From a virus, in the IMG/VR virus record IMGVR_UViG_3300048550_000446, positions 1-20,945 of that record: 20,945 nt of DNA; one strand, 5' to 3'. How positions within the stretch are numbered: position 1 is the first letter of the stretch; the number at the start of each line of letters is the position of its first letter. The notes under the pieces were generated by a model, which saw only the letters and a list, made by a program, of their open reading frames with translations, did not search any database and was not told where the DNA came from. Below are positions 2,810 through 20,945 of this stretch, piece by piece. Position numbers and translations under genes: made by a program.

Positions 2810-2820
2810 GAGGAGGTATT

Positions 2821-3201: not shown

Positions 3202-3348
3202 ATGGCAAGAGCAAAAGTTGGTATCAGTGGTCAGGAATTTTTCCCCGCCAAACCGAAGACCACTCGTCAGGGAAGTTCTAAGAACACAAAATACGCTCCC
3301 ACGAGTCGTAATAGTGCTAAGAAGCGTTATCGGGGACAGGGGCGATGA
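3202..3348 (+). CDS. Very basic small protein (48 aa)
   Basis: 48 residues from ATG 3202 to TGA 3346-3348. It starts MARAKVGISGQEFFPAKPKT and continues as a low-complexity chain rich in Lys, Arg, Ser, Thr and Asn, ending KKRYRGQGR. The net charge is strongly positive with almost no acidic residue, so nucleic-acid binding or disorder is likely. The stop overlaps the next start (ATGA, 3345-3348). Similar short basic proteins occur beside the 217-residue gene in cyanomyoviruses as I recall them, which I cannot verify here. Confidence 0.7.
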   Translation: MARAKVGISGQEFFPAKPKTTRQGSSKNTKYAPTSRNSAKKRYRGQGR

Positions 3349-3998: not shown

Positions 3999-4001
3999 AT
4001 A
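3995..4001 (+). promoter_or_regulatory. Late-promoter-like CTAAATA
   Basis: CTAAATA at 3995-4001 shares the TAAATA core of the T4 late promoter TATAAATA. It overlaps the stop codon (TAA 3996-3998) of the 217-residue gene and sits upstream of the mini-ORFs, gp25, gp6 and the giant gene, which is where a late baseplate promoter is expected. The first two bases of the T4 consensus are not matched, so the call rests on position as much as on sequence. Confidence 0.5.
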
Positions 4002-4009
4002 CTACTGGG

Positions 4010-4081
4010 ATGGCAACCCCATTAAAAGTTCCGATACACTATATCGGAGTAAAAAATGGGAATGAATCATGTACCGGATAA
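4010..4081 (+). CDS. Mini-ORF (23 aa), possibly a broken or frameshifted N-terminus
   Basis: ATG 4010 opens a 23-residue frame starting MATPLKVPIHYIGVKNGNES and ending at TAA 4079-4081. Its last 26 bases overlap the frame at 4056-4199, which is in the +1 frame relative to it. The sequence looks like a genuine protein N-terminus, not chance, but it is very short and its ribosome site is weak (CTGGG directly before ATG). It may be a real small gene. It may also be the N-terminal part of a longer ancestor that continues in the next frame through one indel or a +1 shift. Confidence 0.35.
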   Translation: MATPLKVPIHYIGVKNGNESCTG

Positions 4082-4199
4082 CGTTCCGGCACTTATGGAG
4101 AAAGATTTTGGCACTGTAGTGCTTATTACAGACCCAAAATCCGATTATTTGATGAAAAAAGCGGCCAAAAAGGTAAAAAATAACAAAAAAATTGACTGA
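4056..4199 (+). CDS. Small basic hypothetical protein just upstream of gp25 (47 aa)
   Basis: 47 residues from ATG 4056 to TGA 4197-4199, with a good ribosome site (CGGAGTAAAAA before ATG). It begins MGMNHVPDNVPALMEKDFGT. A hydrophobic strand (VVLITD, residues 21-26) is followed by a Lys-rich C-terminal helix (MKKAAKKVKNNKK). Its stop shares a base with the start of gp25 (TGATG), so it is probably needed for coupled translation of gp25, which lacks its own clear ribosome site. Function unknown. The upstream mini-ORF may belong to the same ancestral gene. Confidence 0.65.
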   Translation: MGMNHVPDNVPALMEKDFGTVVLITDPKSDYLMKKAAKKVKNNKKID

Positions 4200-4615
4200 T
4201 GGCACAAAAATCGGTAACGGGTAAGGATGTCAGTGTTTCTAAGGATTTTAAAGACATTGACATGAGTTTCTTAAAAAATCCATTTACTAATGATATTAGT
4301 GTTGTTAGAAACGAGGATGCTATTAAGCAAGCTTTGAAAAATATCATGCTTACCAAGACTACCGAGAAAGTGTTTGACCCTGAATTCGGTACTAATATCT
4401 GGGTATCCTTGTTTGAACCTATGGATGATATTACTGCCGATAGAATTGAACAAGAAATTATGAATGTAGTCGGGCAATATGAGACACGAATCACAATGCA
4501 AGACGTTGCCGTTGAACCTATTACCAGAGAAAACGCTTATCACATTTTTATCACCTATCGTATCATCGGTAGTCCGATGACCGAAACCGTTTCGTTTGTG
4601 TTAGAGAGGCCATAA
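4199..4615 (+). CDS. 25: Baseplate wedge subunit gp25 (GPW/gp25 family)
   Basis: 138 residues from ATG 4199 to TAA 4613-4615, close to T4 gp25 (132). The GPW/gp25 fold covers roughly residues 33-130. It contains VRNEDAIKQALKNIMLTKTT (36-55), the family's turn FDPEFGTNIW (59-68, with P61 and F63-G64), and a C-terminal pair of strands (AYHIFITYRIIGSPM). It shares ancestry with contractile-sheath baseplate proteins such as phage P2 gpW and T6SS TssE. In the virion it forms part of the inner wedge near the tube-sheath junction, interacting with gp6 and gp53. The gene overlaps gp6 by one base (TAATG), matching a conserved structural operon. Start chosen by length and coupling with the preceding gene. 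Confidence 0.95.
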   Translation: MAQKSVTGKDVSVSKDFKDIDMSFLKNPFTNDISVVRNEDAIKQALKNIMLTKTTEKVFDPEFGTNIWVSLFEPMDDITADRIEQEIMNVVGQYETRITMQDVAVEPITRENAYHIFITYRIIGSPMTETVSFVLERP

Positions 4616-6624
4616 TGATACCTAATAATTTAACAGGACTGGATTTTGTAGATATTAAGGCATCAATTGTCTCATATCTTAAAACCAGACAAGAATTTAC
4701 CGATTATGATTTTGAAGGATCATCTTTATCATATTTGGTAGATTTGCTTGCGTATAATACTTACTATACTTCATTTAATGCCAACATGGCAATGAATGAA
4801 GCATTTTTGCCGTCTGCAACTGTTAGGGATAATGTTGTAAATGTTGCAAAACTTTTAAATTATGTGCCTCATTCTAAAGTTGCTGCCGCAGCAGTTGTAA
4901 ATGTAAGCATACAAACGTCTCTTACTAATGGTGTATATCCTAGTTCACTGACCATTAGGAGGGGTCCTGTTGCTTCTGGGGGTAATTATGTATGGAATTG
5001 CCTTCAAGATACTACTGTTGAGGTAAACCCAACTACAGGGGCAGCATTTTTTGAGAATTTACAAATTAAAGAAGGTACAATTGTCAATTTCTCTTACATT
5101 GTTAATACATTCCAAACACAAATTTATCAGATTCCTTCATCCGATGCTGATATTTCTACACTTGAAGTAACAGTAAAACCTAACGAATCTTCAACTACAA
5201 GCGATATTTACAATCGTGCTGGTAATATTACTGATATTACTCCAACATCAAGAGTTTATTTTGTAAATGAGGGTGAAGATCAACGTTTTGAGGTGCGTTT
5301 TGGAGACAATAGTATTGGTAGATCACTTACTGATGGTGAAGTAATCAACTTTTCTTATCTTGTTAGTGATGCTAATGGGGCAAATGCTGTCCAAAAATTC
5401 CAATGGATTGGTCAATTTACTGATAGTGCAGCAATTCAGTACGCTCCGGCACTAGCACAGGTCTCAACAGTGACTGCATCTAGCGGTGGTGCGGAAGCAG
5501 AGAGTGTAGAATCAATCAAATATAACGCTCCACGCTATTATTCTTCTCAATATCGCGCTGTTACAGCACAAGATTACGCAATTTTAACAAAAAGTGTCTA
5601 TGATAACGCAGAATCTGTTGTTGCATACGGTGGAGATAGTCTAAATCCTCCAGTTTACGGAAAAGTTTACATTGCAGTGAAGACTAGAACCGGTTCTTTG
5701 CTTAATGACGCCACTAAAAAGCAAATTGCTACGGATTTACGCAAATATGCGATGGCATCTATCGATCCTGTGATTGTTGATCCGGAACAACTGTATATTT
5801 ACAACAAAATTTTCGTACAATACGACACTGGATGCGGATCTGACACCTCTACAATCAAAACAGAGGTTCAAAACGCAGTTTCTGAGTGGGCAACTCAAAC
5901 TGCTATCAATAATTTTAATTCTACATTCCGAGCTCAATCGTTTGAGAAGGCAATTACACTTGCAAGTAAGTGTATTACTGATGTTTCTCTGCAAACGACT
6001 ATTCTTCGGTATATTAAACCGCAAACAAATCAGACAAACAGTTATGTAATCACTACAGGAGCACCACTTTATAATTCTGCACCCAGTGTATCCTCTACAG
6101 ATGGTGTAAAGGAACCTATTTTACTGTCGGGTGTCTTCAGAACAGCAGATCGTCCTGGTGTAAACCAACAATTTGAAGATGATGGTTTTGGAAATCTTCG
6201 GATGTTCTATAATACTGGTACTAGAAAGGTATTTACTAATCTAACTGCCGGAACTGTAAATTATGATAGTGGAACTATTGTATTTGGTCCTGTGAATATT
6301 GTTGGATCGGGTTCAAATATTGCTGATACCGGTATTCAACTCACAAATAGTATTACTGGCACTGGTAATATTACTGATCCATCAGCATTACCTACGGATC
6401 TTCAAATTCCAGTACAATTTATCCCAGCAAACGCAGGATCAATTCCTTCTGCTACACCAGGAACTGTACTGAACATCATTTCTCCCGAAGTTTCAATTCA
6501 ACCGTTGGGTACTATTCCACCTCCATCTATCCCTCTAAATAGTTTGACACCAAAAGTATTTGACCAGACTCCTACAGTTATTGCTGTTGCTTCTGCGCTG
6601 AATACAGGGTCACTTAACACATAA
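4615..6624 (+). CDS. 6: Baseplate wedge subunit gp6 (baseplate J-like)
   Basis: 669 residues from ATG 4615 to TAA 6622-6624; T4 gp6 is about 660. The N-terminus carries the gp6 signature, EGSSLSYLVDLLAYNTYYTS (residues 34-53), followed by MNEAFLPSATVRDNVVNVAK (residues 60-79). The middle has a beta-domain turn (RFGDNSIGRSLTDGEVI, about residues 228-244), then the baseplate-J-like segment (APRYYSSQYRAVTAQDYAIL near 305-324). The C-terminal third is rich in Ser, Thr, Pro and Gly. Gp6 dimers join neighbouring wedges into the inner ring and rearrange when the sheath contracts. It is one base from gp25 and 18 bases before the giant gene, in the same frame as the latter but separated by a true stop. 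Family assignment is firm. Confidence 0.95.
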   Translation: MIPNNLTGLDFVDIKASIVSYLKTRQEFTDYDFEGSSLSYLVDLLAYNTYYTSFNANMAMNEAFLPSATVRDNVVNVAKLLNYVPHSKVAAAAVVNVSIQTSLTNGVYPSSLTIRRGPVASGGNYVWNCLQDTTVEVNPTTGAAFFENLQIKEGTIVNFSYIVNTFQTQIYQIPSSDADISTLEVTVKPNESSTTSDIYNRAGNITDITPTSRVYFVNEGEDQRFEVRFGDNSIGRSLTDGEVINFSYLVSDANGANAVQKFQWIGQFTDSAAIQYAPALAQVSTVTASSGGAEAESVESIKYNAPRYYSSQYRAVTAQDYAILTKSVYDNAESVVAYGGDSLNPPVYGKVYIAVKTRTGSLLNDATKKQIATDLRKYAMASIDPVIVDPEQLYIYNKIFVQYDTGCGSDTSTIKTEVQNAVSEWATQTAINNFNSTFRAQSFEKAITLASKCITDVSLQTTILRYIKPQTNQTNSYVITTGAPLYNSAPSVSSTDGVKEPILLSGVFRTADRPGVNQQFEDDGFGNLRMFYNTGTRKVFTNLTAGTVNYDSGTIVFGPVNIVGSGSNIADTGIQLTNSITGTGNITDPSALPTDLQIPVQFIPANAGSIPSATPGTVLNIISPEVSIQPLGTIPPPSIPLNSLTPKVFDQTPTVIAVASALNTGSLNT

Positions 6625-6642: not shown

Positions 6643-9600
6643 ATGAATATTAATAAGGTCTCTCAGTCTCTGTTATCTCAATCTCCAGAGTTTGTACAGT
6701 CCGAATATCCATTATTCAATAAATTTCTTGAGTATTACTATAAATCTCAGGAAAAAACCGGTTTAGGTCAAAATATTCTTAATAACTTTTTGAGTTATTT
6801 GGATATTGATCACCTTGACGTAAAGATTCTTGATGGAAAAACTACGTTAGCGCAAGATATTACTGATATTTCTAATCAGATTGTAGTTGAGTCTGTTGAT
6901 GAGTTTTTAGATCAGAATGGTTCTATTTTAATTGGTGATGAAGTAATTTATTATGAAAGTACGACATCTTCTCCTAATATTGCTCTCAGTCCCGGTATTT
7001 CTTACAGTCAAGTAAAATTAAAGTGGACTAATCTTGCGACGATTGTAGATCAGTTTGATGGTACTAGGAGAGATTTCCAATTGATCTCTCAAGACAATCC
7101 TATCACTGCTCCTAGTCCTCAACATTTGATTGTAAGTAATTACAATGAAGTTTTGATTCCTGTTGTTGATTACGTTATTCAGGGAGATAGAATTGTATTT
7201 ACAGAAGCACCTAGAGCAAAGGTTGCTTCTGACGATACTACTACTACCTTTATCACTTACTTTATTGGTTTTACTGAAAATCCAATTGTTCCCATTGACA
7301 ATCTTGCACCTTCCTTTGGTGATGGTAAAACAATATTTTCCTTAACTAGAGGTGGAGTTTCATATGAACCCATCATTGACGAGTATGTTGTTGCTGTTTA
7401 TGATGGTCGTCATTTAACACCAAAGGTAGATTATTTTCTCGATGCTGATAAAATTATATTTAATTTTGTTCCTATTGTAGGTAGATCTATTTCACTTTAT
7501 GTTATCGAAGCACCCATCCCCTCTTTTGGTGGCGGTGCTAAGGGTTATGCTCGTATTGATGATAATGGACAACTAACAAAAATTGCAACTTCGGATCTGG
7601 GTACAGGATATAGATTTGAATATCCCCCAAAAATTTCCATCAACTCGGAAAATGGTTTTGGTGCTGCAACAGCATCTTTAGTTGATGGTATTAAAAATAT
7701 TTTGCTTCTTGATGGGGGAACTGGGTATAGTGACACCAATCCTCCTATTGTTGAAGTTCAAGCACCGAATAAAGAGGGTTCTGAAGTATCTAAAATTAAG
7801 GCTACGGTAACTAACGGTAGCGTAACTGCTTTGGAGATGTTGAGTTCCGGTAGCGGATATACATTCACTCCTAGAATTACATTTAAACAACCTGGTGGTG
7901 CTATTATTGCATCCCCTACTATGGCTAACGGATCTGTAGTTGGATCTCCTGTAGTTACTCATCAGGGCGAAGGATACGCCACAAGACCGACGATTTATGT
8001 TGATGAACCAACTGGTGCAAACGCTATTAAAGCGTCCTTCCAAGCGATTTTGAGTGAGGATGGGCGTCTTACAGGTCTTACTGTTCTTAATCCTGGTCAG
8101 GGGTATGAAGTACCTCCTAGAATTGCTGTAGTTGATCCAGTTGGTGCTCAAGTATTGCAGACATTTGTTGATGGTAATGGTCGTGTAACTGATATTGAAT
8201 TGTTAGATGGAGGTTCTGGATATGAAGAAGTTCCTTCAGTTTATGTTGTAGATCCTAGATCCGATGATCCTGGTCAAGGAGCGACGGCAAGTGCTTCTAT
8301 CTTTAATGGTAGAATTACTGATATTAACGTGACTAATTTCGGTTCTGGATATAGTGCGGATTTTCCTCCGACTATCGTTATTCAATCTCCCCCTTCAGCA
8401 AGAGCATCCGCAGAGGTTGGACTAAATGAAGTTACAGGTTTTAAAGTATTCAAGACTGGTTCGGGTTATAGTAAGGCTGCTTTCAATGGATGTGCCAGAG
8501 GTGTCTCTGCTATCACCGACTACGATCAAGTAGGAAATGCATCATTTTCTAATTACACATCATCTTCCGCAGCAACTGAAGGAACACAGGTCAAATGCTT
8601 AGATTCTCTCTTTGTTAAGAGAGTGCTTGACAAATATACGGAACAATATTTACCTGATGTTCCGGAATTAGATTATAAAAAGATTGATGTGCGTACTGCC
8701 ATCAGAACGATTAAGGATTTTTATTCAAGTAAGGGTACAGAATTTAGTATTGCTTATCTGTTTAAGTTGCTTTATGGGGAAAATGTAACTATTTCCTACC
8801 CCAAAGATCAAATTATCAAGCCTTCTGCGGCAACTTGGTCTATTGATACAATTCTTCGCGCAACTTTGGTGTCTGGAGATCCCGTAAATATCAAAGATGC
8901 TCTACTTACTCAAGAGTCTGATATTGCCGACTCAAATGTCCGTAGTGCTAGTGCTCTAGTTGAGAACTACATTTCAATTAAAACTTCGGAAGTTGATATC
9001 TATGAGTTAATTTTATCCGAAGAAACGATCAGTGGAAAATTTACTGTACCTTATAAGACGAGACTTGCGGAACCTCTCAATGAAACCGACAGTATTATTA
9101 CGGTTGACTCTACTATTGGTTGGCCAGAACGTAACGGTGAGTTCCTAATTGGAGGAACTGAACTTGTAAGATATAAGGAGAAATCGTTAAACCAGTTCAT
9201 TGAGTGTACTCGTTCCGTTAACGATGTAAGTTCTGTTTGGGATTCGGCAACAGAGATATCTTCCAACTTCACAGTGTACTTAAACAAAGACACTGCTGAA
9301 GAAGTAGTCATGAATATTGTCGGTATTGTTGATGCTCAACAAACAGTTTTGACAGATACAGGTTCTTATTATCTACCTGGTGATAAACTTTCTGTGTCTA
9401 AACTTGGAGGAACTACAACTATTCCCCAATTAACTACTTGGTTGTATAATGTTAAAAAACTTGTTACTGTAGAATCCATTACTTTTGGAGGTGTTAATGA
9501 TCAATCAGCAACTGTTACTTGTTCTTCTCCTCATGGTTTGTTGGTAGGTGATCAGGTTACTGTATATGGTGCCAATCCAATTCTGTATAATGGATCTTTC

Positions 9601-12600
9601 TTTGTAACATCTAGAGATTCTCAGACCGTTTTTCAATATCAATTACCGCAACCTGCTGCTGTAGTTCCTCAAGGTAATATCTTGATCTCTGTTGACCTCA
9701 ATAAAGGCAAGTCTATTACTCAAGCAATTCAGAATGCTATTGGTCCATATACCACTAATATTCAAAATACCTTCTTTAATGACAATTATGTATATGTTGC
9801 ATCTACGGGTATTCCTAACTATGAAATTGGTCCCTTCGTCGGTTCTGCACTTTTACCCGGCAACCAGCGTAAACTTAATAGATTTGAGTTAAATCCTACT
9901 ACAATTTCAACTAAAACCAGTGTTGTACCTGGTCCTATTGGTACATGGATCAATGGTGTATCTGTTTGGTCTTACAAATCGGAACTTAGTAAGACTTTTG
10001 GTGCTGTAACTAATATTAATATTTTAAATTCGGGTAATAATTATGATGCGGCGAGTCCTCCGGTTCTTGCTGTTTCTGGGGGTTTTGGTGCGGGAGCAGA
10101 AGCATCTGTCGTTGTTGACGGATCGTTGTTTGAAGTCGAAGTCACCAATGGAGGTTCTGGGTATACTTCATCTCCACTAGTCTCTATTGTAGGTGGAGGA
10201 GGTGCAGGTGCTGCTGCAACTGCAATTATTACTAAAGGTTCGGTTTCTAGAATTTTAATCAATCAAGGCGGTTCTGGATATACATCTCAACCTCTTATCA
10301 CTATTGTCGGTGGAGGTGGCACTGGTGCTGCTGCAACTGCTTCAGTTCGTGGTCCTATTAAGTCGGTTAATATTGATGCTGGTGGTGCATCATATACAGA
10401 AAAACCATCTGTTGTTTTGAGTTCTGGTCAAGGTGCAGTTGCACAAGCAATTGTTAATAATGGTAGAATTATCTCTATTGCTATTATTTCTGCTGGTTCT
10501 GGTTATACTACTGCACCGGAAATTGGCATTCAGGGTGAAGGTTTTGGTGCAATTGCTAGAGCGACTATTGATACCGATGGTGAAAATGCCGGTAGAGTTA
10601 CTGGAGTTGAAATTATTAACAAAGGTATTGGATATATTCAAGGAACTACTAATATTACGTTAACATCTGTTGGTTCTGATGCAACTTTTGATGCAGATGT
10701 ATTCCAGTGGAATTATAACTTGCAAGAGACTACTGAGTTTGATTCCGCGAAAGGTGCTATTTTCACTGGATTTAATATTCAATATGGTGGTGAATATGCA
10801 CACCTGTCCAATCCCCAAAGATTGAGATACATTCTCGGTGATAGTTTATACCAAGATACGGTTACCAATCAAATCAAAGAACAGGATGCTCAATTAGAGC
10901 ACTCTCCTATTATTGGTTGGGCATTCGATGGTAATCCCATTTATGGTCCATATGCATATTCGGATCCTACGGATCAATCATCCGAAATCCAAAGAATGGG
11001 AAGTTCCTATTCTTTAAAACCCGAATTGGTATACAATGACATCACAAATCCATATCCAGTAAGAACTGCAGGTCCTTTGTTAAATGATGAACCTGCTGGT
11101 AAGTTTGTTGAAGATTACGAGTATGTTTTTGGTTCGGGTGATCTGGATCAATATAATGGTAGATTCTGTAAGACTCCAGAATATCCTAGTGGTAGATATT
11201 GTTATTTTATAACTATCGATGCTTCTGAAAGTGGTAATCCAGTATTCCCTTACATTCTAGGACCCCAATATAACTCTGTAGTAGATATTTGGAACTTGAA
11301 TGATGATGCTGTTCAGCAAAATATTCCTACTGGTGTTGTCAGATATCGCGATCCTTATGAGAATGTTGATATTGATATCGAAAGAATTCCCAATGCTTCT
11401 ACAAATTCAATCACTACAGAAAGTGGTGAACTGCTTCTGTTTGAACCTGAAGATGAAAATAGAGATGGTGTAATCAGTCAGGATGAAATTGACGATCCTG
11501 AAGGAATACTTGAGGAATCTCCTCTGCAGTTGTTTGATTACTTCCCTAAAGTTAAATTTGACTCTAAGGTTGATATTGAAGTTGAAACCATCACTAAGTT
11601 TGAAGATGCATCTGTAACTGGATTTACTATCGAAAATGCTGGTGAAAACTATCAGGTTAATGATAGATTACTCTTTGATAATACGGATACGGATGGTACT
11701 GGTGTTTCTGCCAGAATATCTAAAATTAAGGGCGAAACAATATCTTCTTATAATTACGAGACCATTGAAGGTGTTAATTATGGCATCTTAAAAACATCAA
11801 CACCTCATAATATTAAGGTTGCTGATCAAGTCTATGTTGATTATACTCCATTGATGGATAACACCAATAAGGAGTTTATTGTCCGCCAATACAAAGGTAT
11901 TGAGGAAATTGTAGTTACTCAAAGTGGTAGCGGATATAATACCGACATTCCACCTACAATTGTTATCGATGGTGATGGTGTAGATGGTAGAGTTGAAGCA
12001 GTTGTTGATGCTGTTGGTGCTATTAAGACTTTTAATATCCTTAATTCTGGTTCTGGATACACTCAGAATCCTCGTGTTATCCTTTCTCACCCTCAGGTAT
12101 TCAAAAAAGCAGATTATTATACAACATTAGTTGAAAACTATAATTGGGTAAAAGTTGTTGATATTTTAGTCAATGATCAAAAAGAATCTTATGTTTGCGG
12201 TTCTACCTATGATAGTGCAAATAATAATGTTGCTTTCTTAGCTAAATTATCAGCAACTGGTGTTAAAGAATGGGAAAAGATGTTGGAGACTACGATTCCT
12301 GCTTCTGGAACGTTTACAGAATTCCAACGTATTATTAAAGATGGTTCGGATATCTACGTTGCTGGTATTAATAAACCAAATGCTACAGTTCTTGATTCTT
12401 ACAACCCGGATATTATTGTTGCGAAATATGCTGAAGCGACTAATGGTTTAAGTGCAACTCTTACTTGGCAGAAAGGATATGCCGGTATTTCCGGTTCTAC
12501 TAGATCCGACAACATTAGTGCATTCAAGCAGTTAAATGAGAATAGATTTGTTCTTGGAGGTTTTACTAATACTAACTCTGGTGCTCCTTGGGATGCGTTC

Positions 12601-15600
12601 TTAGCGATCATCGATACTGCTGGATTCTTCGTTGCTAAGAGAAAACTTGCTTCGGACAATCAATCCGAAAAGATTACTGATATTGCAATCCATGAAGGAA
12701 ATATCTACTTCACTATGGAGACTTCCTCTTCACAGTCTTCCAATGATGTTAACGTATCTTTCGGTAAAGCAATTCCTGCTACTGCATCTATTTCTATTGA
12801 TTGGATCAGAGAAGTTCAAAACACTACATATTCTTTCTTAAATTCATCTTTATGTGTCGATGAGTTTGGTGAATTCTATGTCCCATGTACTCTTAGATTG
12901 AAATCTGATGATACTACAAGAGATAGTGTTTGGGTTGGTAAGTTTGATAGTGCTGGAACATCTATTTGGAATAAGCAATATCAAGTCGGTTCCCAGATAG
13001 AATTAGTCGATAGATGCTCTGTTGATATTTTTGGCGATCTTACCATTGCCTATACCAAAGTCAATACTTCTGACACAAAGAGAACTATTAATAGTCTAAA
13101 GATTAAGTATGATGGAACCATGCTTAAGAATACTGAGAATGTGTTCAATGCTGTTACTCAAAATGCTACATCTACCTGCATTGAAGGTATTACCGTTCAT
13201 GCACTGACAACAGATAGCTCTGGTGATGTTTATACCTTTGGTCAAACTCAATGGAATAGAAATGAAGCTGTAATTCCATTTACCACAGATGCTAGCGATA
13301 TTACAAGTCACCATACACCTACTGCTGTAAGTGCTAGTGGCGGTCATACCATCGCTGATGGTATGTTAAAAATCTACGGTCATGCCTCTGGTAATAATGC
13401 AACATGGGATAATTCTTATCTCAAGATTCCTGCATCTAGTGTTGCTAACAAATTGAATGGTGATTGGACTTTACAGTTCTTTATCTACAAGGACTCTACC
13501 AAGTCTCAGACACTTTCTCAAAATGTTCAGACATTAATTGGTATTGGTGGTGCTCAAGATGCTACTGGAGGTCTTTGGTTAGGATATGACACTGGTAACA
13601 CAGGAAAACTCCAGATGGTTATCAGTAATAGTACCACAGCATTAAATGTTGCTGGTTCTGGATTAAGTTCTGCTTTAACCAGCATGTATGCTGATAATAC
13701 ATGGCAAGTAATTAGCTTAACCAAGCAAGGAACATTATTTAAGGCATGGGTTAATGGAATTGAAGTTCTTACTGGTAATGTAACTAACACCGACTTTTCT
13801 AATAAAGATATCTACATTGGCAACCAAGTCGGTTGGGGTGCTACTGCTACAGATTTTGCTTCCACATATCAAGGTCAATTCTACGTTGACCATCTGTTCT
13901 TTAAGAATCGTTATATCGCACCTTCTGTTCCGAGTGATATTACTGTGCTTCCTACAACTGGAGCATTTGCAGAAAACTTTGATTGGGTAGACGATGCTTG
14001 GTTTACTACAAATCTCAATCGTTATGATTATATCGATTATGTTGGATATGGATTAAAGACCGACAAGAACTCTGATGCGGTTAATGTTGGTGCTATTGGA
14101 TCTCAAGCAAACACCAAACTTGATATTACTAGAAATGTCATCACTTCTATAACTGGTGTTGATCTTACACTTTCAAATGCTGGTTATGCTTTAGGTGGAG
14201 AAGGATTCCAATCTCTTGATTTTAATGATGCAAATAGCAATCTTTCTCAAGATACAGAATCTTTAGAAATTACTCAGGATATCTGGGGGTCTCGTACAGC
14301 AACAGTTCCTTCACCCGGATCCCAAAAAGTTAAGGCAACTGCTGTAGTTAAAGATCGTTATTTCTTCAAAGTATGCAATACTATTAAAATTGATAATGTT
14401 CAAAGATTAACGATTAATCAACCGTTCGATTTTACTATTGGTTCAAAATTAACCTTAACTAATGGTAGTACATTTATTAATAGCGGTTATATTATTGATA
14501 CAGATACAACATCAAATAGATATGTCTATGTTGCTGTCAACAATAATGAATGGACTAATGACTTGGATACTGGTCATCTTGCAACCGAGAGATTTGATGA
14601 GCAAGATACTTATGGTATTAGAGGTCCAGTTCCTAATGATGTTAATGTTATATCAAAATATACTTTCTCTCAAGTAGTTAACACCACACCTGGTACTTTT
14701 GATATTGCTCTTAGTAGCTATGATGCTCCTCCGATTGTTGGCGGAACTAATAATTTACACGAATATTCATATTTTAGACCTTACAATGATGAAGATTATT
14801 CTGTGAGAATTGATGAAATTTCTGGTAGTTCTCCTTATATTGTAGGTTCTGTTGTAAGTCTATCTGATGCTACAGTCACCTATAACGCATCTTACAATAC
14901 AATTAATATTCAAGGATTGACAGGTGTCGCTAAAATTACATTAATCACCAATCTGAATAAGATTCTTCAAGTAGATGCTGTTTCTAATAGTGATTTGGTC
15001 TATGTTATTACTGATACTAGCCATTATCTTTCTGATGGTGAAGTTATCTATGTTGATGGTAATCCATCCGAAGAAGTTGGCAATCCTGCAGTTGTTTATG
15101 ATGAATATGACGGTGCATTCCCTGTTCATAATGTAATTAGTGTTAAGGAATTTACTTATAAACTGGACAATATTGCCGTTTCTTCTCCTGCCACAAATGC
15201 ATCTACAGTTGGAATATATGTTAAGTCACCGACTCTTAAGATGTATTATGGACACCAGTATATCTTTGATTTAAGTCACTCTTCCTTAGTTGGTGGAAAC
15301 TTATCTTTCTCTAAGGATAGCTTGAATAAGTTGGAGTATTCCTTTAACTCTATTGAGCGTATTGGTACTCCTGGTGTAACTGGTGGGGGTCAACCAAATC
15401 CATCTGTTAAGTTAAAGGTAGATAGAGATATTGTCACCAATATTTCATACTATTTCGATCCATCTAGAACAGGATCTGATTCTCCTGTAATTGAAGGTTC
15501 TTATTTAGACGTTGTTGGTTCTCCTTATGAGGGTTCCTTTACTGTAACTAGCACTTCTGGTGCTACTATTACAAGAGGTGCTGACATAATGAGATTCCCT

Positions 15601-18600
15601 CTGGTCAATGAACCCGAAGGAAACGCCGATGTAATTAACGCATCTTATTCTACTGCTTCTGAAGCTGCAGTTGGTTCTATTCATGAAGTTCGTATTGTCA
15701 ATAAAGGCGGTTTCTATACTAAACTTCCAATCGTTACTGGTATTCAGTCCAACAGAAAAATTGAAAGAATTCAAATTAATGAGCCAGGCACCGAATATGC
15801 ACCAGGACAATACAACAATGTTCCTATTCAAGGTGATGGTGAGGGTGGTCTTGTTAATATCACTGTTGAAGATACTACTGATGATGAGGGTAACACTGTT
15901 CCTGGACAAATTACTTCTGCTATCATAAATTCGTCTGGTAAGGGATATACCACCGCATTTATTGATGTTCAGTCTATTAATGGGATTCTTGGGTCTAGTC
16001 TTGCTGGATCCGGTGCTGAGTTGGTAGTTGTTATCCCACCCTTTGGTACTGGAGCTTCTATCTTCACTAAAGGTCAAGAAGTTGGTAAAATTAAGAAACT
16101 TAAAAATAATAACTTTGGTTATGATTATCCTCACGATTATACCCTTAGACCCGAAATCACTTTCCCACTGAACTGTCAATTAACTTCTACGAGTATTTTG
16201 GACAGTATTACAGTAACCGATCCGGGTTCTGGATATTCTCAAGCACCCGCAGTTATTATTACGGGTGGTGGCGGATCTGGTGCTACAGCAGAGGCAACTA
16301 TTGCTAATGGTAGACTCGATCAAATTGCAGTTAAAGATCCTGGTGCTGGTTATTCTTCTACTCCAACCGTCGCTCTTAGATCTTCATTTAACTATGTTGT
16401 TAACCTTGATCTTGGATTATTACAATTTGCATTCCCTCACGGTATCATTAATGGTTCTGAAGTTACTCTGAATGTTGTAGATACTGGTGAGGGAGCAGAA
16501 TTCCCACTGTCTGCAGGTGCTTTAGGTAGGTTAAATGGTAATACCACTTATTATGCAATTGCTGGATCTGCACAATCCCTTGATGATGATCAATTAAAAT
16601 TAGCAATCACAGCAACAAACGCCGAACTTGGTGATGCAATTAGTTTCGTTAATGGTGGCATTGGTCGTAATCAAGTATTGACCGAATCATTTGGTGGTAC
16701 TGCAACAGCAAACGTAATTACATCTACTTTCCTTGAAGGTGAACTTGTATATCAAGGTTCGAGTATCGAAACTGCAACCGCGACTGGATATGTTTCCACT
16801 AACAGCGGTTGGCAAGTTGGTCCCAGAATCCTTAAGGTCGTTGATTATGAAGGGGAGTTTGTTTCTGGACAAAGTATTACTGGTATTATTTCCAAGTCTT
16901 CTGGTATCATTAGTGACTTGAAAGTTGCTAAAGGTGTTCTTGAAATTGGTTCTATTACCAAAACTACTGGTCAATTTATTGATGATGTTGGTAAACCTTC
17001 TGAAATTATTCAGAAAGTACAGGATTCCTATTTCTATCAAGACTTCTCTTATGCTGTTAAGTCTTCTGTATCCGTAAGTGAATGGAAAGATGTTCTTATC
17101 AAGAACGTTCATCCCGCAGGATTCAAGGTGTTTGGTGAATTGAATATCAATGATTATGGTTATATCCCCAATAAAGAAACATCCTTTGAGTTAACAAAGT
17201 CTGTACAGTTAGCACAAGAATCAGTTGTTCCTAATATTCAGAGTTTTGCTCTTGTTGAACCGATTTATCAAGAGTTTAATAATACAGAAGTTCTGTTCCG
17301 TCAGAAGAGATTAACATCTTCAGAGAACATTTTAACCTCTGTTGTTCAGAGATTGGACGATATTTCTGGATTGTTTGATGGAGAAAGAATCTCTTTCCCC
17401 TTACAAGTCAATGGTGAGAACATTATTGCTGCATCAAATCAGTTAATGATCGTTCTTAATGGTGTTGTTCAGACTCCAGAAACTGCGTTTAAGGTGGAGA
17501 ATGATTCCATTGTATTCTCAGAACCTCCCAAACCCCCTGCTAGTGTTAAGTATGCTGAGATTACTATCTCACAACTTCCACAATCAATCTTTAACTTTAC
17601 TGATATTAGCGGCATTTTCCCGAATATTGGAGATACTATACAAGGTATTGTAAGTTCGGCTAAAGCAACAATAACTAAAGTTGAAGGTAGCAATCTTCAA
17701 GGTTTTATGACCGAAGGGACATTCCAGGTTGGAGAGTTGATTACTGGTAATGCTACTGGATTTAATGGTGATTTTGCTACTATCACCCCTGTAACCAATA
17801 ATGGTTTATTTGCTTTCAATGAAACCATTTCCAATTTGGATGGTGATACTGCAAAGGTTGAGGAAATTAATCTTGAAGGTGGTCAGCAAGAACCTTTGGG
17901 TACTTTAAGATATGGCATCGGTACTTCCACAACATCATTTGAAGTTCTGACTTCTGATGCTTCTCAGTTTGCTGTTAGTGATAACATTCAGATTGCGTCT
18001 GAAATTATGACCATTAGTGCAGTTACTGCTGGCAGTGAATCTGGAATTATTAATCTTCAGGTAAGTAGAGCACAACTTGGAACTGCCGCTGTTTCCCACT
18101 TACAGGCTGCTCCTTTATATGGTACTGATATTGAGATTGGTAATAATCTGATTCTTAGTAAAACCGCTGGAACATATCAATCTACACCAGGATTGTTTGA
18201 TATTGCATTAAATGACATTATTATTGGTGCTAAATCTGGAGTTGTTGCTACGGTTACTGCTACAAGTCCTTATCAAGATCCAGCAACTCAACAGTTTATT
18301 AGTCAGGTTAATATTTCACCTGGAGCAAGTTTCTCCGGTCTTCTGTTCAACAGAATTACTAGTATTAACTATCAAAACGTTGTTCTTGATGATATTTCTG
18401 CATCTCAAATTAGTATTGTTGATTTTGATGATAATACGACTCCGTTTGATTCCAACTTCCCAGCAAATGAAATTATCAACAATATTGTAATTGATGTTGT
18501 TAATGTTAATGGAACTTTCCAAGAAGGTGAAAAAATTAGAAATAAGAGAGTCGAACTTTCAAATACTGTTGGTGATTTTATTACCGATGAAAATACTTCC

Positions 18601-20945
18601 GTTAGAAAACTTACTCACGAGAAAAATACTCTTGGATCTGGATTCTTCACTGCCGGTCAGGTTATTAGAAATACTACATCTAAGGCAGAAGTTATTGGTT
18701 ATAATCAAGCAAGAAAAACTGTTTACTTGGGTAAAGTAGCAAGATCTCAATATACTGGAGAGGATTATCATGTTTCTACTTTTAATGAAGAAGCACAACT
18801 TGATACGTCCACAAAGAGATATGGTCTATCTTCACTACTCTTAGCGCGTGCATATCATCAACATACTTTCGTTAGTGGTGTTGCAGATGCTATTACCTCT
18901 AATACTAATGTCACATATACTGCAGCAACTGGAACAACATATGATCCAGTAACTGGTGTATTGGTTCTTGAGATTGGTGCTCATGGTCTTTCGACCTCAG
19001 AAACAATTACAATTGCTGATAATGGATTAGTATTTACATGTGGCGCTGATGCTCACGGATCAAATCACCCATATCCCCGTTCCACAGATCCTGCTTCTGG
19101 TTCAACTATTGCAATTTCTGCTACTAGTGCTACTACTATTACAGTCAATGTAGGTGCCGCTAATGGCACTTCCGACTTCTTAAGTATTCCAACCTCTACT
19201 GAGTTTGGATTCGGCACTGGAAACTTCACTATTGAATTCTGGATGCGTGCTGGTAATATCTCTGGTACTAAAGCATTGGTTGATTTTAGATCTACTGCTA
19301 CAGAACTTGCTCCTTATTTGTATCTTGATGGTATGAATTTGAAGTATTACAATAATGGTAGTGTTGTTATCACTGGCGCTACAAATCTTGGACACTCCAC
19401 TTGGTATCATGTTGCTCTTTCTAGAAGTGGGAACAGCACTAAGTTATTCTTAAACGGTGTTCAAGAGGGTAGCACATATTCTGATGGTAGTGATTTTGGA
19501 ACTACCAAACCAATTAAATTTGCTGGTGATTATGCAGGTGCTAACACGTTCTCTGGTCATTTGGATGAATTGAGAGTATCTTCGGTTGCTCGTTATACTG
19601 CCGATTTCACTGCTCCTACTGGATTATTCCAAGGCGATGCTGATACTAAACTTCTTTTACACTTTGATGGTGTTGATGGACAGGTTCACACTGATGATTG
19701 GTCTGGTACAGCATCTTGGACTGAAGGTGATGATTTCTGTAATGATGCTCTGAGAGAAACTCAAAGAAACACAGGTGGTAAGCACATCTTTGTTGAATCT
19801 TCTGCGGATGCTATTGCTGTAAATGGTACTAACGAACAAGTTACCGCAGCAACTTATAACCAAGTGACGGGTGATCTTGTTCTGACTATTGGTTCTCATA
19901 GTTATACAACTTCAAATACAGTTGTCATTGCAGCAAATGCTCTTACATTTACTTGCTCTAAAGATAATCATGCAACCAATCACACATATCCTAGATTAAC
20001 CGATCCCGCATATGGTTCTACTCTTACTATTTCTGCGGTTACAGGCACTACACTTACAGTTAATGTTGGTGTTCCTACATCCGGATTTGTTGGGAAGACA
20101 CACAGATATATTGATGCTTCCAGATTAATCTCCGAAAACAGATCGCTTATTGCTAAAGAATCCGTTTATCTGATGAGACAGAGATATCCAAATCTTGTCA
20201 TTCCTGGCGATAGATTCACACCAACAGATGCAACGTATGATGCAACTACTGGATTGTTAACAATGGCAGTTAGTGCAAATACACTGACTAACGGTGGTAA
20301 GATTACACCTAGAAATGCAACATATGATGCTGCAACTGGTGATATGACTATTGCAGTAACTAATCATGGATTGAGTGTTGGTCAAAGAGTTAATATTAAA
20401 GTCAACTCTATAACATTTACTTGTGATCAAGATAGCAATGGATCAGAACATGAATATCCTCGTCCTACAGATCCTGCTGCTGGAGATTGGATTACTATTA
20501 CTAGTGTGCCAAATGACCATGAATTTGTAATTAATGTTAGTGCATCTCCTTCAGGTCAGCAATACACTCACAATTTTGTTTCCGCTGAAACTGGTGCTAT
20601 TACAGTAGAAAGAGATCGCATTAAGATCAATCCTAATGCATTGACATTTACATGTTCTAGTGATAATAATCAGACTGAGGTAACATATCCCCGTCCAAGA
20701 GATCCTGCTACTAAGTTTAATGCACTGCCTGTTGTTGATGCATCTTCTACGTCAATTACAGTTAATGTAGGTACATCTCCGTTTGTTTACTGGACACCTA
20801 CTGGTGCAACGTATGATGCTGCAACTGGTGATTTTGTAATGACCATTCCAAATCATACAATTAATGCTGGAACTAAATTAAGACTTGCTAATCTTGGATT
20901 TACATTCACTTGCAGTCAAGACGCTAATGGTTCTCAGCATCAGTA
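6643..20945 (+). CDS. Giant modular virion protein, baseplate/fibre-like (3' end beyond the window)
   Basis: The frame opens at ATG 6643 (first in-frame start after the gp6 stop) and has no stop through 4767 codons to the window edge, about 0.5 MDa so far. The order seen: helical N-terminus (residues 1-60, QSPEFVQSEYPLFNKFLEYY); beta modules ending in a hairpin domain (223-289); eight GxGY repeats (307-616); second helical block (651-732); HGL module (about 947-1006); GxGY repeats (1127-1346); YHYH domain (1420-1545); EF-hand loop (1604-1615); two GxGY repeats (about 1750-1816); seven-unit propeller-like region (1836-2210); LamG-like domain (2241-2424); beta-rich linkers with further GxGY repeats (to about 3246); LamG-like domain (4176-4326) inside Cys-containing tail repeats. 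It lacks polymerase, protease or nuclease motifs. Its place after gp6 is that of T4 gp7, so a wedge-attached start extended into a host-contact fibre is my inference. Giant structural genes are known in cyanomyoviruses. Codon use resembles gp6, so it is not a foreign insert. Confidence 0.9.
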   Translation, partial: MNINKVSQSLLSQSPEFVQSEYPLFNKFLEYYYKSQEKTGLGQNILNNFLSYLDIDHLDVKILDGKTTLAQDITDISNQIVVESVDEFLDQNGSILIGDEVIYYESTTSSPNIALSPGISYSQVKLKWTNLATIVDQFDGTRRDFQLISQDNPITAPSPQHLIVSNYNEVLIPVVDYVIQGDRIVFTEAPRAKVASDDTTTTFITYFIGFTENPIVPIDNLAPSFGDGKTIFSLTRGGVSYEPIIDEYVVAVYDGRHLTPKVDYFLDADKIIFNFVPIVGRSISLYVIEAPIPSFGGGAKGYARIDDNGQLTKIATSDLGTGYRFEYPPKISINSENGFGAATASLVDGIKNILLLDGGTGYSDTNPPIVEVQAPNKEGSEVSKIKATVTNGSVTALEMLSSGSGYTFTPRITFKQPGGAIIASPTMANGSVVGSPVVTHQGEGYATRPTIYVDEPTGANAIKASFQAILSEDGRLTGLTVLNPGQGYEVPPRIAVVDPVGAQVLQTFVDGNGRVTDIELLDGGSGYEEVPSVYVVDPRSDDPGQGATASASIFNGRITDINVTNFGSGYSADFPPTIVIQSPPSARASAEVGLNEVTGFKVFKTGSGYSKAAFNGCARGVSAITDYDQVGNASFSNYTSSSAATEGTQVKCLDSLFVKRVLDKYTEQYLPDVPELDYKKIDVRTAIRTIKDFYSSKGTEFSIAYLFKLLYGENVTISYPKDQIIKPSAATWSIDTILRATLVSGDPVNIKDALLTQESDIADSNVRSASALVENYISIKTSEVDIYELILSEETISGKFTVPYKTRLAEPLNETDSIITVDSTIGWPERNGEFLIGGTELVRYKEKSLNQFIECTRSVNDVSSVWDSATEISSNFTVYLNKDTAEEVVMNIVGIVDAQQTVLTDTGSYYLPGDKLSVSKLGGTTTIPQLTTWLYNVKKLVTVESITFGGVNDQSATVTCSSPHGLLVGDQVTVYGANPILYNGSFFVTSRDSQTVFQYQLPQPAAVVPQGNILISVDLNKGKSITQAIQNAIGPYTTNIQNTFFNDNYVYVASTGIPNYEIGPFVGSALLPGNQRKLNRFELNPTTISTKTSVVPGPIGTWINGVSVWSYKSELSKTFGAVTNINILNSGNNYDAASPPVLAVSGGFGAGAEASVVVDGSLFEVEVTNGGSGYTSSPLVSIVGGGGAGAAATAIITKGSVSRILINQGGSGYTSQPLITIVGGGGTGAAATASVRGPIKSVNIDAGGASYTEKPSVVLSSGQGAVAQAIVNNGRIISIAIISAGSGYTTAPEIGIQGEGFGAIARATIDTDGENAGRVTGVEIINKGIGYIQGTTNITLTSVGSDATFDADVFQWNYNLQETTEFDSAKGAIFTGFNIQYGGEYAHLSNPQRLRYILGDSLYQDTVTNQIKEQDAQLEHSPIIGWAFDGNPIYGPYAYSDPTDQSSEIQRMGSSYSLKPELVYNDITNPYPVRTAGPLLNDEPAGKFVEDYEYVFGSGDLDQYNGRFCKTPEYPSGRYCYFITIDASESGNPVFPYILGPQYNSVVDIWNLNDDAVQQNIPTGVVRYRDPYENVDIDIERIPNASTNSITTESGELLLFEPEDENRDGVISQDEIDDPEGILEESPLQLFDYFPKVKFDSKVDIEVETITKFEDASVTGFTIENAGENYQVNDRLLFDNTDTDGTGVSARISKIKGETISSYNYETIEGVNYGILKTSTPHNIKVADQVYVDYTPLMDNTNKEFIVRQYKGIEEIVVTQSGSGYNTDIPPTIVIDGDGVDGRVEAVVDAVGAIKTFNILNSGSGYTQNPRVILSHPQVFKKADYYTTLVENYNWVKVVDILVNDQKESYVCGSTYDSANNNVAFLAKLSATGVKEWEKMLETTIPASGTFTEFQRIIKDGSDIYVAGINKPNATVLDSYNPDIIVAKYAEATNGLSATLTWQKGYAGISGSTRSDNISAFKQLNENRFVLGGFTNTNSGAPWDAFLAIIDTAGFFVAKRKLASDNQSEKITDIAIHEGNIYFTMETSSSQSSNDVNVSFGKAIPATASISIDWIREVQNTTYSFLNSSLCVDEFGEFYVPCTLRLKSDDTTRDSVWVGKFDSAGTSIWNKQYQVGSQIELVDRCSVDIFGDLTIAYTKVNTSDTKRTINSLKIKYDGTMLKNTENVFNAVTQNATSTCIEGITVHALTTDSSGDVYTFGQTQWNRNEAVIPFTTDASDITSHHTPTAVSASGGHTIADGMLKIYGHASGNNATWDNSYLKIPASSVANKLNGDWTLQFFIYKDSTKSQTLSQNVQTLIGIGGAQDATGGLWLGYDTGNTGKLQMVISNSTTALNVAGSGLSSALTSMYADNTWQVISLTKQGTLFKAWVNGIEVLTGNVTNTDFSNKDIYIGNQVGWGATATDFASTYQGQFYVDHLFFKNRYIAPSVPSDITVLPTTGAFAENFDWVDDAWFTTNLNRYDYIDYVGYGLKTDKNSDAVNVGAIGSQANTKLDITRNVITSITGVDLTLSNAGYALGGEGFQSLDFNDANSNLSQDTESLEITQDIWGSRTATVPSPGSQKVKATAVVKDRYFFKVCNTIKIDNVQRLTINQPFDFTIGSKLTLTNGSTFINSGYIIDTDTTSNRYVYVAVNNNEWTNDLDTGHLATERFDEQDTYGIRGPVPNDVNVISKYTFSQVVNTTPGTFDIALSSYDAPPIVGGTNNLHEYSYFRPYNDEDYSVRIDEISGSSPYIVGSVVSLSDATVTYNASYNTINIQGLTGVAKITLITNLNKILQVDAVSNSDLVYVITDTSHYLSDGEVIYVDGNPSEEVGNPAVVYDEYDGAFPVHNVISVKEFTYKLDNIAVSSPATNASTVGIYVKSPTLKMYYGHQYIFDLSHSSLVGGNLSFSKDSLNKLEYSFNSIERIGTPGVTGGGQPNPSVKLKVDRDIVTNISYYFDPSRTGSDSPVIEGSYLDVVGSPYEGSFTVTSTSGATITRGADIMRFPLVNEPEGNADVINASYSTASEAAVGSIHEVRIVNKGGFYTKLPIVTGIQSNRKIERIQINEPGTEYAPGQYNNVPIQGDGEGGLVNITVEDTTDDEGNTVPGQITSAIINSSGKGYTTAFIDVQSINGILGSSLAGSGAELVVVIPPFGTGASIFTKGQEVGKIKKLKNNNFGYDYPHDYTLRPEITFPLNCQLTSTSILDSITVTDPGSGYSQAPAVIITGGGGSGATAEATIANGRLDQIAVKDPGAGYSSTPTVALRSSFNYVVNLDLGLLQFAFPHGIINGSEVTLNVVDTGEGAEFPLSAGALGRLNGNTTYYAIAGSAQSLDDDQLKLAITATNAELGDAISFVNGGIGRNQVLTESFGGTATANVITSTFLEGELVYQGSSIETATATGYVSTNSGWQVGPRILKVVDYEGEFVSGQSITGIISKSSGIISDLKVAKGVLEIGSITKTTGQFIDDVGKPSEIIQKVQDSYFYQDFSYAVKSSVSVSEWKDVLIKNVHPAGFKVFGELNINDYGYIPNKETSFELTKSVQLAQESVVPNIQSFALVEPIYQEFNNTEVLFRQKRLTSSENILTSVVQRLDDISGLFDGERISFPLQVNGENIIAASNQLMIVLNGVVQTPETAFKVENDSIVFSEPPKPPASVKYAEITISQLPQSIFNFTDISGIFPNIGDTIQGIVSSAKATITKVEGSNLQGFMTEGTFQVGELITGNATGFNGDFATITPVTNNGLFAFNETISNLDGDTAKVEEINLEGGQQEPLGTLRYGIGTSTTSFEVLTSDASQFAVSDNIQIASEIMTISAVTAGSESGIINLQVSRAQLGTAAVSHLQAAPLYGTDIEIGNNLILSKTAGTYQSTPGLFDIALNDIIIGAKSGVVATVTATSPYQDPATQQFISQVNISPGASFSGLLFNRITSINYQNVVLDDISASQISIVDFDDNTTPFDSNFPANEIINNIVIDVVNVNGTFQEGEKIRNKRVELSNTVGDFITDENTSVRKLTHEKNTLGSGFFTAGQVIRNTTSKAEVIGYNQARKTVYLGKVARSQYTGEDYHVSTFNEEAQLDTSTKRYGLSSLLLARAYHQHTFVSGVADAITSNTNVTYTAATGTTYDPVTGVLVLEIGAHGLSTSETITIADNGLVFTCGADAHGSNHPYPRSTDPASGSTIAISATSATTITVNVGAANGTSDFLSIPTSTEFGFGTGNFTIEFWMRAGNISGTKALVDFRSTATELAPYLYLDGMNLKYYNNGSVVITGATNLGHSTWYHVALSRSGNSTKLFLNGVQEGSTYSDGSDFGTTKPIKFAGDYAGANTFSGHLDELRVSSVARYTADFTAPTGLFQGDADTKLLLHFDGVDGQVHTDDWSGTASWTEGDDFCNDALRETQRNTGGKHIFVESSADAIAVNGTNEQVTAATYNQVTGDLVLTIGSHSYTTSNTVVIAANALTFTCSKDNHATNHTYPRLTDPAYGSTLTISAVTGTTLTVNVGVPTSGFVGKTHRYIDASRLISENRSLIAKESVYLMRQRYPNLVIPGDRFTPTDATYDATTGLLTMAVSANTLTNGGKITPRNATYDAATGDMTIAVTNHGLSVGQRVNIKVNSITFTCDQDSNGSEHEYPRPTDPAAGDWITITSVPNDHEFVINVSASPSGQQYTHNFVSAETGAITVERDRIKINPNALTFTCSSDNNQTEVTYPRPRDPATKFNALPVVDASSTSITVNVGTSPFVYWTPTGATYDAATGDFVMTIPNHTINAGTKLRLANLGFTFTCSQDANGSQHQ
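7561..8490 (+). repeat. GxGY solenoid-like repeats, cluster 1 (eight units)
   Basis: Residues 307-616 of the giant protein. Eight copies of a G-x-G-Y turn (LGTGYRF, GGTGYSD, GSGYTFTPRI, GEGYATRPTI, GQGYEVPPRI, GSGYEEVPSV, GSGYSADFPP, GSGYSK), mostly followed by a Pro-containing strand and then a G-rich turn. The Tyr codons are at 7609, 7726, 7858, 7975, 8104, 8221, 8350 and 8467, so spacing alternates 39, 44, 39, 43, 39, 43, 39 residues. The pattern fits a beta-solenoid or beta-prism whose true unit is a pair of about 82 residues. The fold is inference. Confidence 0.8.
8593..8838 (+). other. Second helical block of the giant protein
   Basis: Residues 651-732: a run of amphipathic helices (LDSLFVKRVLDKYTEQYLPD, then DVRTAIRTIKDFYSSKGTEF, then SIAYLFKLLYGENVTISYPK), unlike the beta-rich surroundings. 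Together with the helical N-terminus, it looks like one conserved wedge-attachment region interrupted by the repeat array. I recall the RTIKDFYSSKGTE-type motif from other cyanophage structural proteins, which I cannot verify here. Confidence 0.6.
9481..9660 (+). other. HGL-type small beta module
   Basis: Residues about 947-1006 contain VTCSSPHGLLVGDQVTVYGA followed by NGSFFVTS and a final Phe-x-Tyr strand. The pattern S-P-H-G-L-x-x-G-D-x-V then N-G-x-F is a small beta module often repeated in phage and marine viral structural proteins. A relic with TPHNIKVADQVYVD lies near 11800. HGL also appears in the C-terminal repeats. Confidence 0.55.
10021..10680 (+). repeat. GxGY solenoid-like repeats, cluster 2 (six units)
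   Basis: Residues 1127-1346. Six units with turn Tyr codons at 10042, 10162, 10279, 10393, 10504 and 10633, spaced 40, 39, 38, 37 and 43 residues. The first full units are the most alike (GGSGYTSSPLVSIVGGGGAG and GGSGYTSQPLITIVGGGGTG), each followed by AAATA. They look like recent duplicates. Spacing here is nearly constant, unlike the alternating cluster 1. Confidence 0.8.
10900..11277 (+). other. YHYH domain in the giant protein
   Basis: Residues 1420-1545. The signature is IIGWAFDGNPIYGPYAYSD (from 10909), then a Tyr/Pro-rich core, KFVEDYEYVFGSGDLDQYNG (11101 on), TPEYPSGRYCYF, and a closing PVFPYILGPQY. This matches the YHYH domain, a family of unclear function found in secreted, often marine, proteins and in cyanophage structural proteins. 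Ligand binding outside the particle is an inference. Confidence 0.8.
11452..11487 (+). other. Canonical EF-hand calcium loop
   Basis: Residues 1604-1615 read DENRDGVISQDE, with D1, N3, D5, G6, I8 and E12 in the exact positions of an EF-hand/dockerin calcium loop. It is a single loop in a non-repeated linker after the YHYH domain. Calcium binding is inferred from the motif. Confidence 0.65.
11890..12090 (+). repeat. GxGY repeat pair, cluster 3
   Basis: Two units (GSGYNTDIPPTIVIDGDG, Tyr at 11935; NSGSGYTQNPRVILSH, Tyr at 12058), 41 residues apart, directly before the propeller-like region. Confidence 0.7.
12148..13270 (+). other. Seven-unit beta-propeller-like region
   Basis: Residues about 1836-2210. 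Seven successive units carry an aromatic-centred strand after a G/N/D turn (SYVCGS, IYVAGI, RFVLGG, IYFTME, FYVPC, LTIAYT, VYTFGQ). Most are followed by a strand naming a sample-like pattern (AFLAKLSATGVKEWEK; DAFLAIIDTAGFFVAK; VWVGKFDSAGTSIWNK). The central residues lie at about 12190, 12355, 12547, 12706, 12877, 13042 and 13231, spaced 53-64 residues. The xFLAKLxxxGxxxW form resembles SBBP-type propeller blades. Seven units fit a closed propeller. Confidence 0.65.
13363..13914 (+). other. LamG-like (concanavalin-type) domain 1
   Basis: Residues 2241-2424: DNSYLKIPASS, then DWTLQFFIYKDST, GLWLGYD, DNTWQVISLTKQGTLFKAWV (from 13696) with NGIEV, and QGQFYVDHLFFKNR. This order (F-strand, W-x-x-I/V-S-L-T-K, W-V-N-G, Y-x-D-x-L) is typical of LamG-like jelly rolls. 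It likely binds sugars or proteins at the cell surface (inference). Confidence 0.7.
15690..16380 (+). repeat. GxGY-type repeats, cluster 4
   Basis: A degraded set (GGFYTKLP, GTEYAPGQ, GKGYTTAF) is followed by two clear units (GSGYSQAPAVIITGGGGSGA, Tyr 16234; GAGYSSTPTVALR, Tyr 16351, 39 residues later). A YDYPHDYTLRPEI segment lies between them at about 16123. The clear units resemble cluster 2. Confidence 0.65.
18931..20945 (+). repeat. C-terminal FTC...YPR repeats (at least five)
   Basis: Units of about 75 residues share the pattern TYDxxTG, a strand with HGL or similar, FTC-x-x-D, H-x-YPR-x-x-DPA, then a Thr/Ser-rich end VNVG. They lie at 18931-19155 (75 residues), 19846-20070 (75), 20314-20541 (76), about 20566-20772 (divergent start), and 20803 to the window edge. 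A half unit (ATYDATTGLL...) lies at 20227-20313. The Cys codons are at 19039, 19954, 20422, 20653 and 20911. Copies 1 and 2 are separated by a LamG domain. Confidence 0.85.
19168..19620 (+). other. LamG-like (concanavalin-type) domain 2
   Basis: Residues 4176-4326: FGTGNFTIEFWMRAG, KALVDFRS, LKYYNNGSVV, STWYHVALSRSGNSTKLFLN (from 19399), GVQEGS, SGHLDELRVSSVARYTADF. This is a clear LamG/laminin-G-type jelly roll with the classic WYHVALSR and LDELRVS strands. It sits between two C-terminal repeats. Cell-surface glycan or protein binding is inferred from the fold. Confidence 0.85.

Follow-up and report, generated by a model that had tools for sequence, protein, structure and literature searches.

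The giant reading frame that follows gp6 in the 20,945-nucleotide stretch of viral DNA analysed here (the window) very probably encodes gp7, the baseplate wedge subunit of a marine T4-like cyanophage. In this reading, the gp7 core is split into three segments, the sequences inserted between and after them loop out as appendages, and the protein would be present in six copies per virion. Sequence comparisons indicate that the giant protein is gp7 itself, rather than a protein that only occupies gp7's place. That the giant gene exists and that its product occurs in virions was already known, as was the wedge label given in some database records. In the searchable literature, which leaves most subscription journals outside it, neither the split core nor the size series was found described.

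The gene (6643..20943; all window features described here are on the plus strand) starts at an ATG at position 6643, with 18 bases separating it from the gp6 stop codon. As the sequence-only reading of this DNA had claimed, the frame is open to the window edge, with 4767 codons and zero stops. The chance of such an open frame in random DNA of the same composition (37.8% GC) is ~10^-143, and over this length the remaining two forward frames contain 200 and 637 stops. The window record ends inside the ORF, at base 20945. The earlier reading had suggested obtaining sequence past this point to find the stop, and an overlapping IMG/VR contig (3300048549_001018, or L005) supplies it: L005 matches window positions 17375-20945 with 99.9% identity over 3571 bp, the frame is continuous from the window, and the in-frame stop at L005 position 9398 corresponds to window coordinate 26772, ~5.8 kb beyond the edge. 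The full-length product, a composite from two contigs, is 6709 aa and 722 kDa, in line with the earlier estimate of a chain of ~0.5 MDa or larger. A search for DNA tandem repeats found none.

A gp25-like baseplate wedge gene (4199..4615; PF04965 GPW_gp25, E 2.3e-16) is followed by a gp6-like baseplate wedge gene (4615..6624; PF21379 Gp6-like_1st, E 2.1e-18), and the stop codon of the giant gene on L005 is followed by a 406-aa gene with the T4 gp9/gp10 N-terminal domain and then by a large ORF, annotated in syn9 as a putative fibre. Hence, the order is that of a T4-type gp7, gp25-gp6-gp7-(gp8)-gp9/10, and the earlier placement of the frame in the gp7 slot, immediately behind gp6, stands. In Syn9, S-RIM2 and L005, the giant gene adjoins the gp9/gp10-like gene with no gp8 between them; after the shorter gp7s of P-HM2, S-CREM2 and HTVC008M, gp8 comes next. 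Upstream of gp25, a 217-aa ORF at 3345-3998 has zero Pfam matches.

What identifies the protein as gp7? It carries a core made of three segments. Segment A comprises the N-terminal helices (residues 1-60; 6643..6822) and matches its profile at i-E 8.8e-32, the window being in the training set. Segment B (residues 635-741; 8545..8865) contains DFYSSKGTEFSIAYLFKLLYGE, and segment C (residues 3448-3513; 16984..17181) contains QDSYFYQDFSYAVKSS...VHPAGFKVFGE. PF23786 (Baseplate_wedge), a single 284-aa model, matches the protein in two separate pieces at a distance of 2730 residues: positions 175-221 of the profile fall in segment B, at residues 678-724, and positions 235-280 fall in segment C, at about residues 3458-3499. 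Cyanophage profiles built for each segment were compared with six T4-type gp7s by profile-profile alignment (hhalign). Segment B aligned with the T4 gp7 family at 96.2% probability and E 2.4e-9 (T4 residues 727-758), segment C at E 1.7e-5 (T4 861-891), and segment A weakly, at E 0.05, in a collinear position (T4 643-672, inside the N-terminal helical segment at T4 643-689). Thus, two of the three segments (B and C) are individually significant and all three are collinear. The joined core reached E 3e-10, and the reversed controls did no better than E 0.04. Segment A also matches residues 1-59 of the compact gp7 of Desulfovibrio phage 7757 at E 4.2e-6, and that compact protein matches T4 gp7 residues 642-894 at E 1.4e-7. 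Profile searches of the whole PDB (177,635 sequences) gave gp7 as the first hit for segment B (E 1.2e-5) and T4 gp7 as the first hit for segment C (E 0.025).

The gp7 match of the first 750 residues, a check proposed by the sequence-only reading, was weak: residues 1-760 hit gp7 at E 0.031, although gp7 was the sole hit in the PDB. The weakness is explained by the position of part of the core 2700 residues downstream. Searching the PDB directly with the giant protein by itself gave zero matches, and none of the T4-group Pfam models Gp7_5th, Gp7_6th and Gp7_helical matched it. These three domains are likewise absent from the Desulfovibrio phage compact gp7, so they are treated here as a trait of a subgroup rather than as defining the wider family. 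Structure prediction gave no confirmation of the core. In an AlphaFold model of residues 1-760, the core helices have low confidence; a Foldseek search with this model found no significant match in the PDB and, among viral models, solely orthologs and repeat-sharing proteins. AlphaFold modelled the 300-aa minimal core poorly (pLDDT 47.5), and that model was for this reason left out of the fold search. T4 gp7 (PDB 5IV5, 5HX2) and the window protein have in common segments B and C, their order, and a position between gp6 and gp8-10, and they differ in where the remaining sequence lies. T4 gp7 has 1032 aa, with ~640 residues of domains before the core and roughly 100 residues (domain V) within it, whereas the window protein begins at the core, carries ~2706 residues at the domain V site, and adds a long tail.

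The window gene is an unexceptional member of the phrog_701/syn9 gp101/T4-GC969 family. The profile of phrog_701 (cyanophage virion structural protein, 6136 columns) matches residues 1-4071 at E 0, and position and length class are shared with syn9 gp101 and with S-SM1 T4-GC969, an ortholog assigned by locus tag. The N-terminus of the giant protein is present in 406 phage records, and the gene comes after gp6 in every T4-like cyanophage isolate inspected. Length varies widely among these: shorter versions occur in S-CREM2 (1937 aa), MA01 (1942), S-SSM7 (3007), S-RSM4 (3515) and P-HM2 (4454), and longer ones in syn9 (6076), S-SM1 (6180), S-RIM2 (6378) and S-SZBM1 (6619), with P-SSM7 and P-TIM40 above 7000. 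Family records mostly read “structural protein”, “hypothetical” or “putative fiber”, not gp7. The proteins of P-HM2 and S-SSM7 and S-SZBM1_208 (6619 aa), labelled “baseplate wedge initiator”, carry core segments A, B and C in the same order, next to gp6.

Published proteomics place orthologs in virions. S-SZBM1_208 (724.20 kDa) yielded 71 peptides at 13.5% coverage (PMC9146016), S-CREM2 ORF122, recorded as “baseplate wedge protein, intermediate”, yielded 91 unique peptides (PMC10665884), and S-SM1 T4-GC969 was also detected (PMC3037559). Hence, the earlier suggestion that the giant protein may be a baseplate protein is strengthened, given that the gp7 core itself is present and that orthologs occur in purified virions.

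The same core is found in far smaller proteins. An IMG/VR scan with segment C found at least 572 relatives, and the best 80 loci, chosen by segment C similarity, were examined; the size distribution among them is thus no census. In all 64 environmental ORFs from these loci that carry the three segments, the order is A-B-C. The B-C gap is 9 to 1740 residues in these ORFs and 2700-3025 in truncated cyanophage loci. The smallest core-bearing ORF among the 80 best loci has 300 aa (L325 and L344), and in L344 it sits between gp6 and gp8, in the synteny gp25-gp6-X-gp8. Further compact gp7s have 586 aa (Desulfovibrio phage 7757, with A, B and C nearly contiguous) and 1016 aa (HTVC008M). Profiles built only from cyanophages match the compact gp7s at E 1e-5 to 1e-23, and a profile of the compact family hits gp7 alone at significance in the PDB (E 3.7e-10 and 1.2e-8). 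The PF23786/compact gp7s (300-600 aa), from marine phages and others, have the same core in a contiguous or nearly contiguous form, with a B-C spacing of 9-314 residues in compact gp7s as against 2706 in the window protein. That one core, in one order in 64 of 64 ORFs, recurs from 300 aa upward argues that insertions at fixed points enlarged gp7. There are three such sites: the A-B junction, the B-C junction (the T4 domain V site) and the C-terminus. We infer that growth went from small to large. It is tentatively suggested, as a possibility that falls short of an even chance, that marine T4-like phages use gp7 as an expandable platform: two slots in the core and the C-terminus would accept host-contact modules, and what was a structural clamp would thereby have turned into the main host-facing baseplate protein, ranging from 300 to >7000 residues around one conserved core.

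What do the three sites hold in the window protein? Insert 1 (residues 61-634, ~575 aa; 6823..8544) lies between A and B and includes beta repeats of ~40 aa with a G-x-GY motif at residues 319-610. An AlphaFold model of this array has a pLDDT of ~90 over residues 350-610, which supports the solenoid repeats seen earlier. In P-HM2, S-SSM7, MA01 and S-CREM2, the A-B spacing is only ~70-80 residues. Insert 2 (residues 742-3447, ~2706 aa; 8866..16983) separates B from C, at the place of the roughly 100-aa domain V of T4 gp7. It contains further repeats, a YHYH domain (residues 1356-1527; 10708..11223; PF14240, E 6.7e-31), an EF-hand-like calcium loop and a first LamG/concanavalin-like domain (residues 2257-2404; 13411..13854; PF13385, E 1.7e-6). 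The C-terminal extension is roughly 3200 residues in total; its part in the window (residues 3514-4767 of 6709; 17182..20943) includes a second LamG/concanavalin-like domain (residues 4174-4317; 19162..19593; PF13385, E 7.2e-21). S-CREM2 has no such extension, its protein ending 5 residues past its segment C match. Pfam thus agrees with the sequence-only reading on the YHYH and LamG domains. The EF-hand fared less well: the loop ENRDGVISQDEI at residue 1605 (11455..11490) is visible by eye as a sequence pattern and has no Pfam hit. The propeller-like fold placed at residues 1820-2200 has no match in Pfam or the PDB and is unproven. A FlgD_tudor Pfam hit (E 0.00089, under the cut-off) was set aside as chance, and a similarity to Phycobilisome at residues 1637-1681 of the L005 protein (E 0.0019; 18.6 bits against a cut-off of 22.2) is probably chance as well.

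How might such a protein work? A core of roughly 190 residues, presumably ancestral, would be assembled out of three separated segments and would pair with gp6, a pairing shown in T4. The ~575- and 2706-residue inserts and the ~3200-residue tail would loop out from the periphery of the wedge as beta-rich, lectin-domain-bearing appendages, probably directed outward. The T4 tail has six gp7 copies (PMC3004832), and T4 gp7 sits in a (gp6)2-gp7 unit (PMC6300606); TssG of type VI secretion systems has an equivalent place in the (TssF)2-TssG trimer and is likened to gp7 by position (PMC6300606). By analogy with T4, one copy would be expected per wedge and six per virion, ~4.3 MDa in total. The appendages may sense or stick to the host surface and relay this to baseplate switching. 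Homology and published proteomics speak strongly for the role as a wedge clamp; host contact through the lectin-like domains, the only features of receptor-binding type, is plausible from domain content.

There are four other ways to account for the giant frame. An assembly or sequencing error could have joined several genes into one, as the sequence-only reading itself had considered, and the metagenome contig does stop within the ORF. This explanation is already refuted by several observations. An independent relative with 90-92% DNA identity (G002) has 6759 consecutive codons without a stop, all on one contig. Against the 90-92% relative, dN/dS is 0.077 over 3697 codons and 0.026 to 0.115 per block, showing that the gene is under purifying selection. 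Isolates with the gene after gp6 have complete proteins of the same length class (6076 to 6619 aa), with P-SSM7 and P-TIM40 longer, and the 724-kDa ortholog yielded peptides. The huge open frame is, therefore, a real gene. Alternatively, a polyprotein could be made as one chain and then cut, freeing gp7 and several appendage proteins. The extreme size and the modular, mosaic inserts are in keeping with this, and peptide coverage of just 13.5% leaves room for cleavage of S-SZBM1_208. However, the core segments flank insert 2, so cleavage there would split the wedge protein, and S-SZBM1_208 was reported as a single 724-kDa entry. We consider a polyprotein very unlikely.

The other two explanations concern the division of labor at the baseplate. 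A fibre or adhesin gene could merely occupy the gp7 slot, the gp7 role being held by another protein such as VrlC. Many records carry the labels “putative fiber” or “structural protein”, the protein has YHYH and LamG domains, and gp7 has been stated to be absent from cyanomyophages and pelagimyophages, with VrlC as its replacement (PMC7029224). This statement is contradicted by Pelagibacter phage HTVC008M, in which I899_gp055 (L367:6823-9873; 1016 aa) lies in the gp6-gp8 interval and bears the gp7 core. P-HM2 likewise has a gene with the core in this interval, and in both phages VrlC sits further downstream, past gp8, as a gene of its own; a profile search found segments A-C neither in HTVC008M VrlC nor in the VrlC part of P-HM2. 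In these two phages, VrlC is not the carrier of the core in gp7's place. A fibre in the gp7 slot is highly improbable. The last explanation is that this is a true gp7 whose inserts took over several T4 rim functions (gp8, gp9, gp11, gp12, long fibres). The lack of gp8 directly after the gene in Syn9, S-RIM2 and L005, its presence after shorter gp7s, and a published list of genes that cyanomyoviruses lack (g10, g11, g12, g34, g35 and g37; PMC2984593) all favor this. Nevertheless, large fibre genes still adjoin, no Pfam match to gp8, gp9, gp11 or gp12 above the cut-off was found in the inserts, and gp8 may sit elsewhere in these genomes. A takeover of rim functions is unlikely. The earlier proposal that the protein has absorbed the tail-fibre function is not supported, since the gp9/gp10-like gene and the fibre gene follow directly downstream.

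What are the implications of a giant gp7 with a split core? The assignment would identify which cyanophage gene is gp7, correct the literature on the supposed absence of gp7, and expose wrong database labels. For example, HTVC008M I899_gp055 is annotated “head closure Hc2”, a label that may have spread via the G-x-GY repeats common to phrog_460. Conversely, SSSM7_103, SShM2_094 and SSZBM1_205 are labelled “gp7” or “baseplate wedge initiator” and have no core; these core-less genes of S-SSM7, S-ShM2 and S-SZBM1 lie at L166:30069-39074, L172:38622-40343 and L366:14260-16107. The split core would also provide a clean system in which to ask how a load-bearing part of a six-fold machine tolerates insertions more than 10 times its own size, and it opens the question of whether gp7 insertions determine which cyanobacteria get infected.

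Conservation is high to about residue 3600, falls in the tail, and climbs again over the last 340 residues. This conserved C-terminal end suggests a fixed binding partner; in the composite, residues 6370-6709 are conserved at 76-90% to syn9, far above most of the preceding tail. Diverged repeats of ~90 residues with the pattern TFTCSxDxNxxxHxYPRxTDPA run through window positions 19600-20943 and L005 positions 3570-5000, and they also match several other cyanophage gp7-slot proteins.
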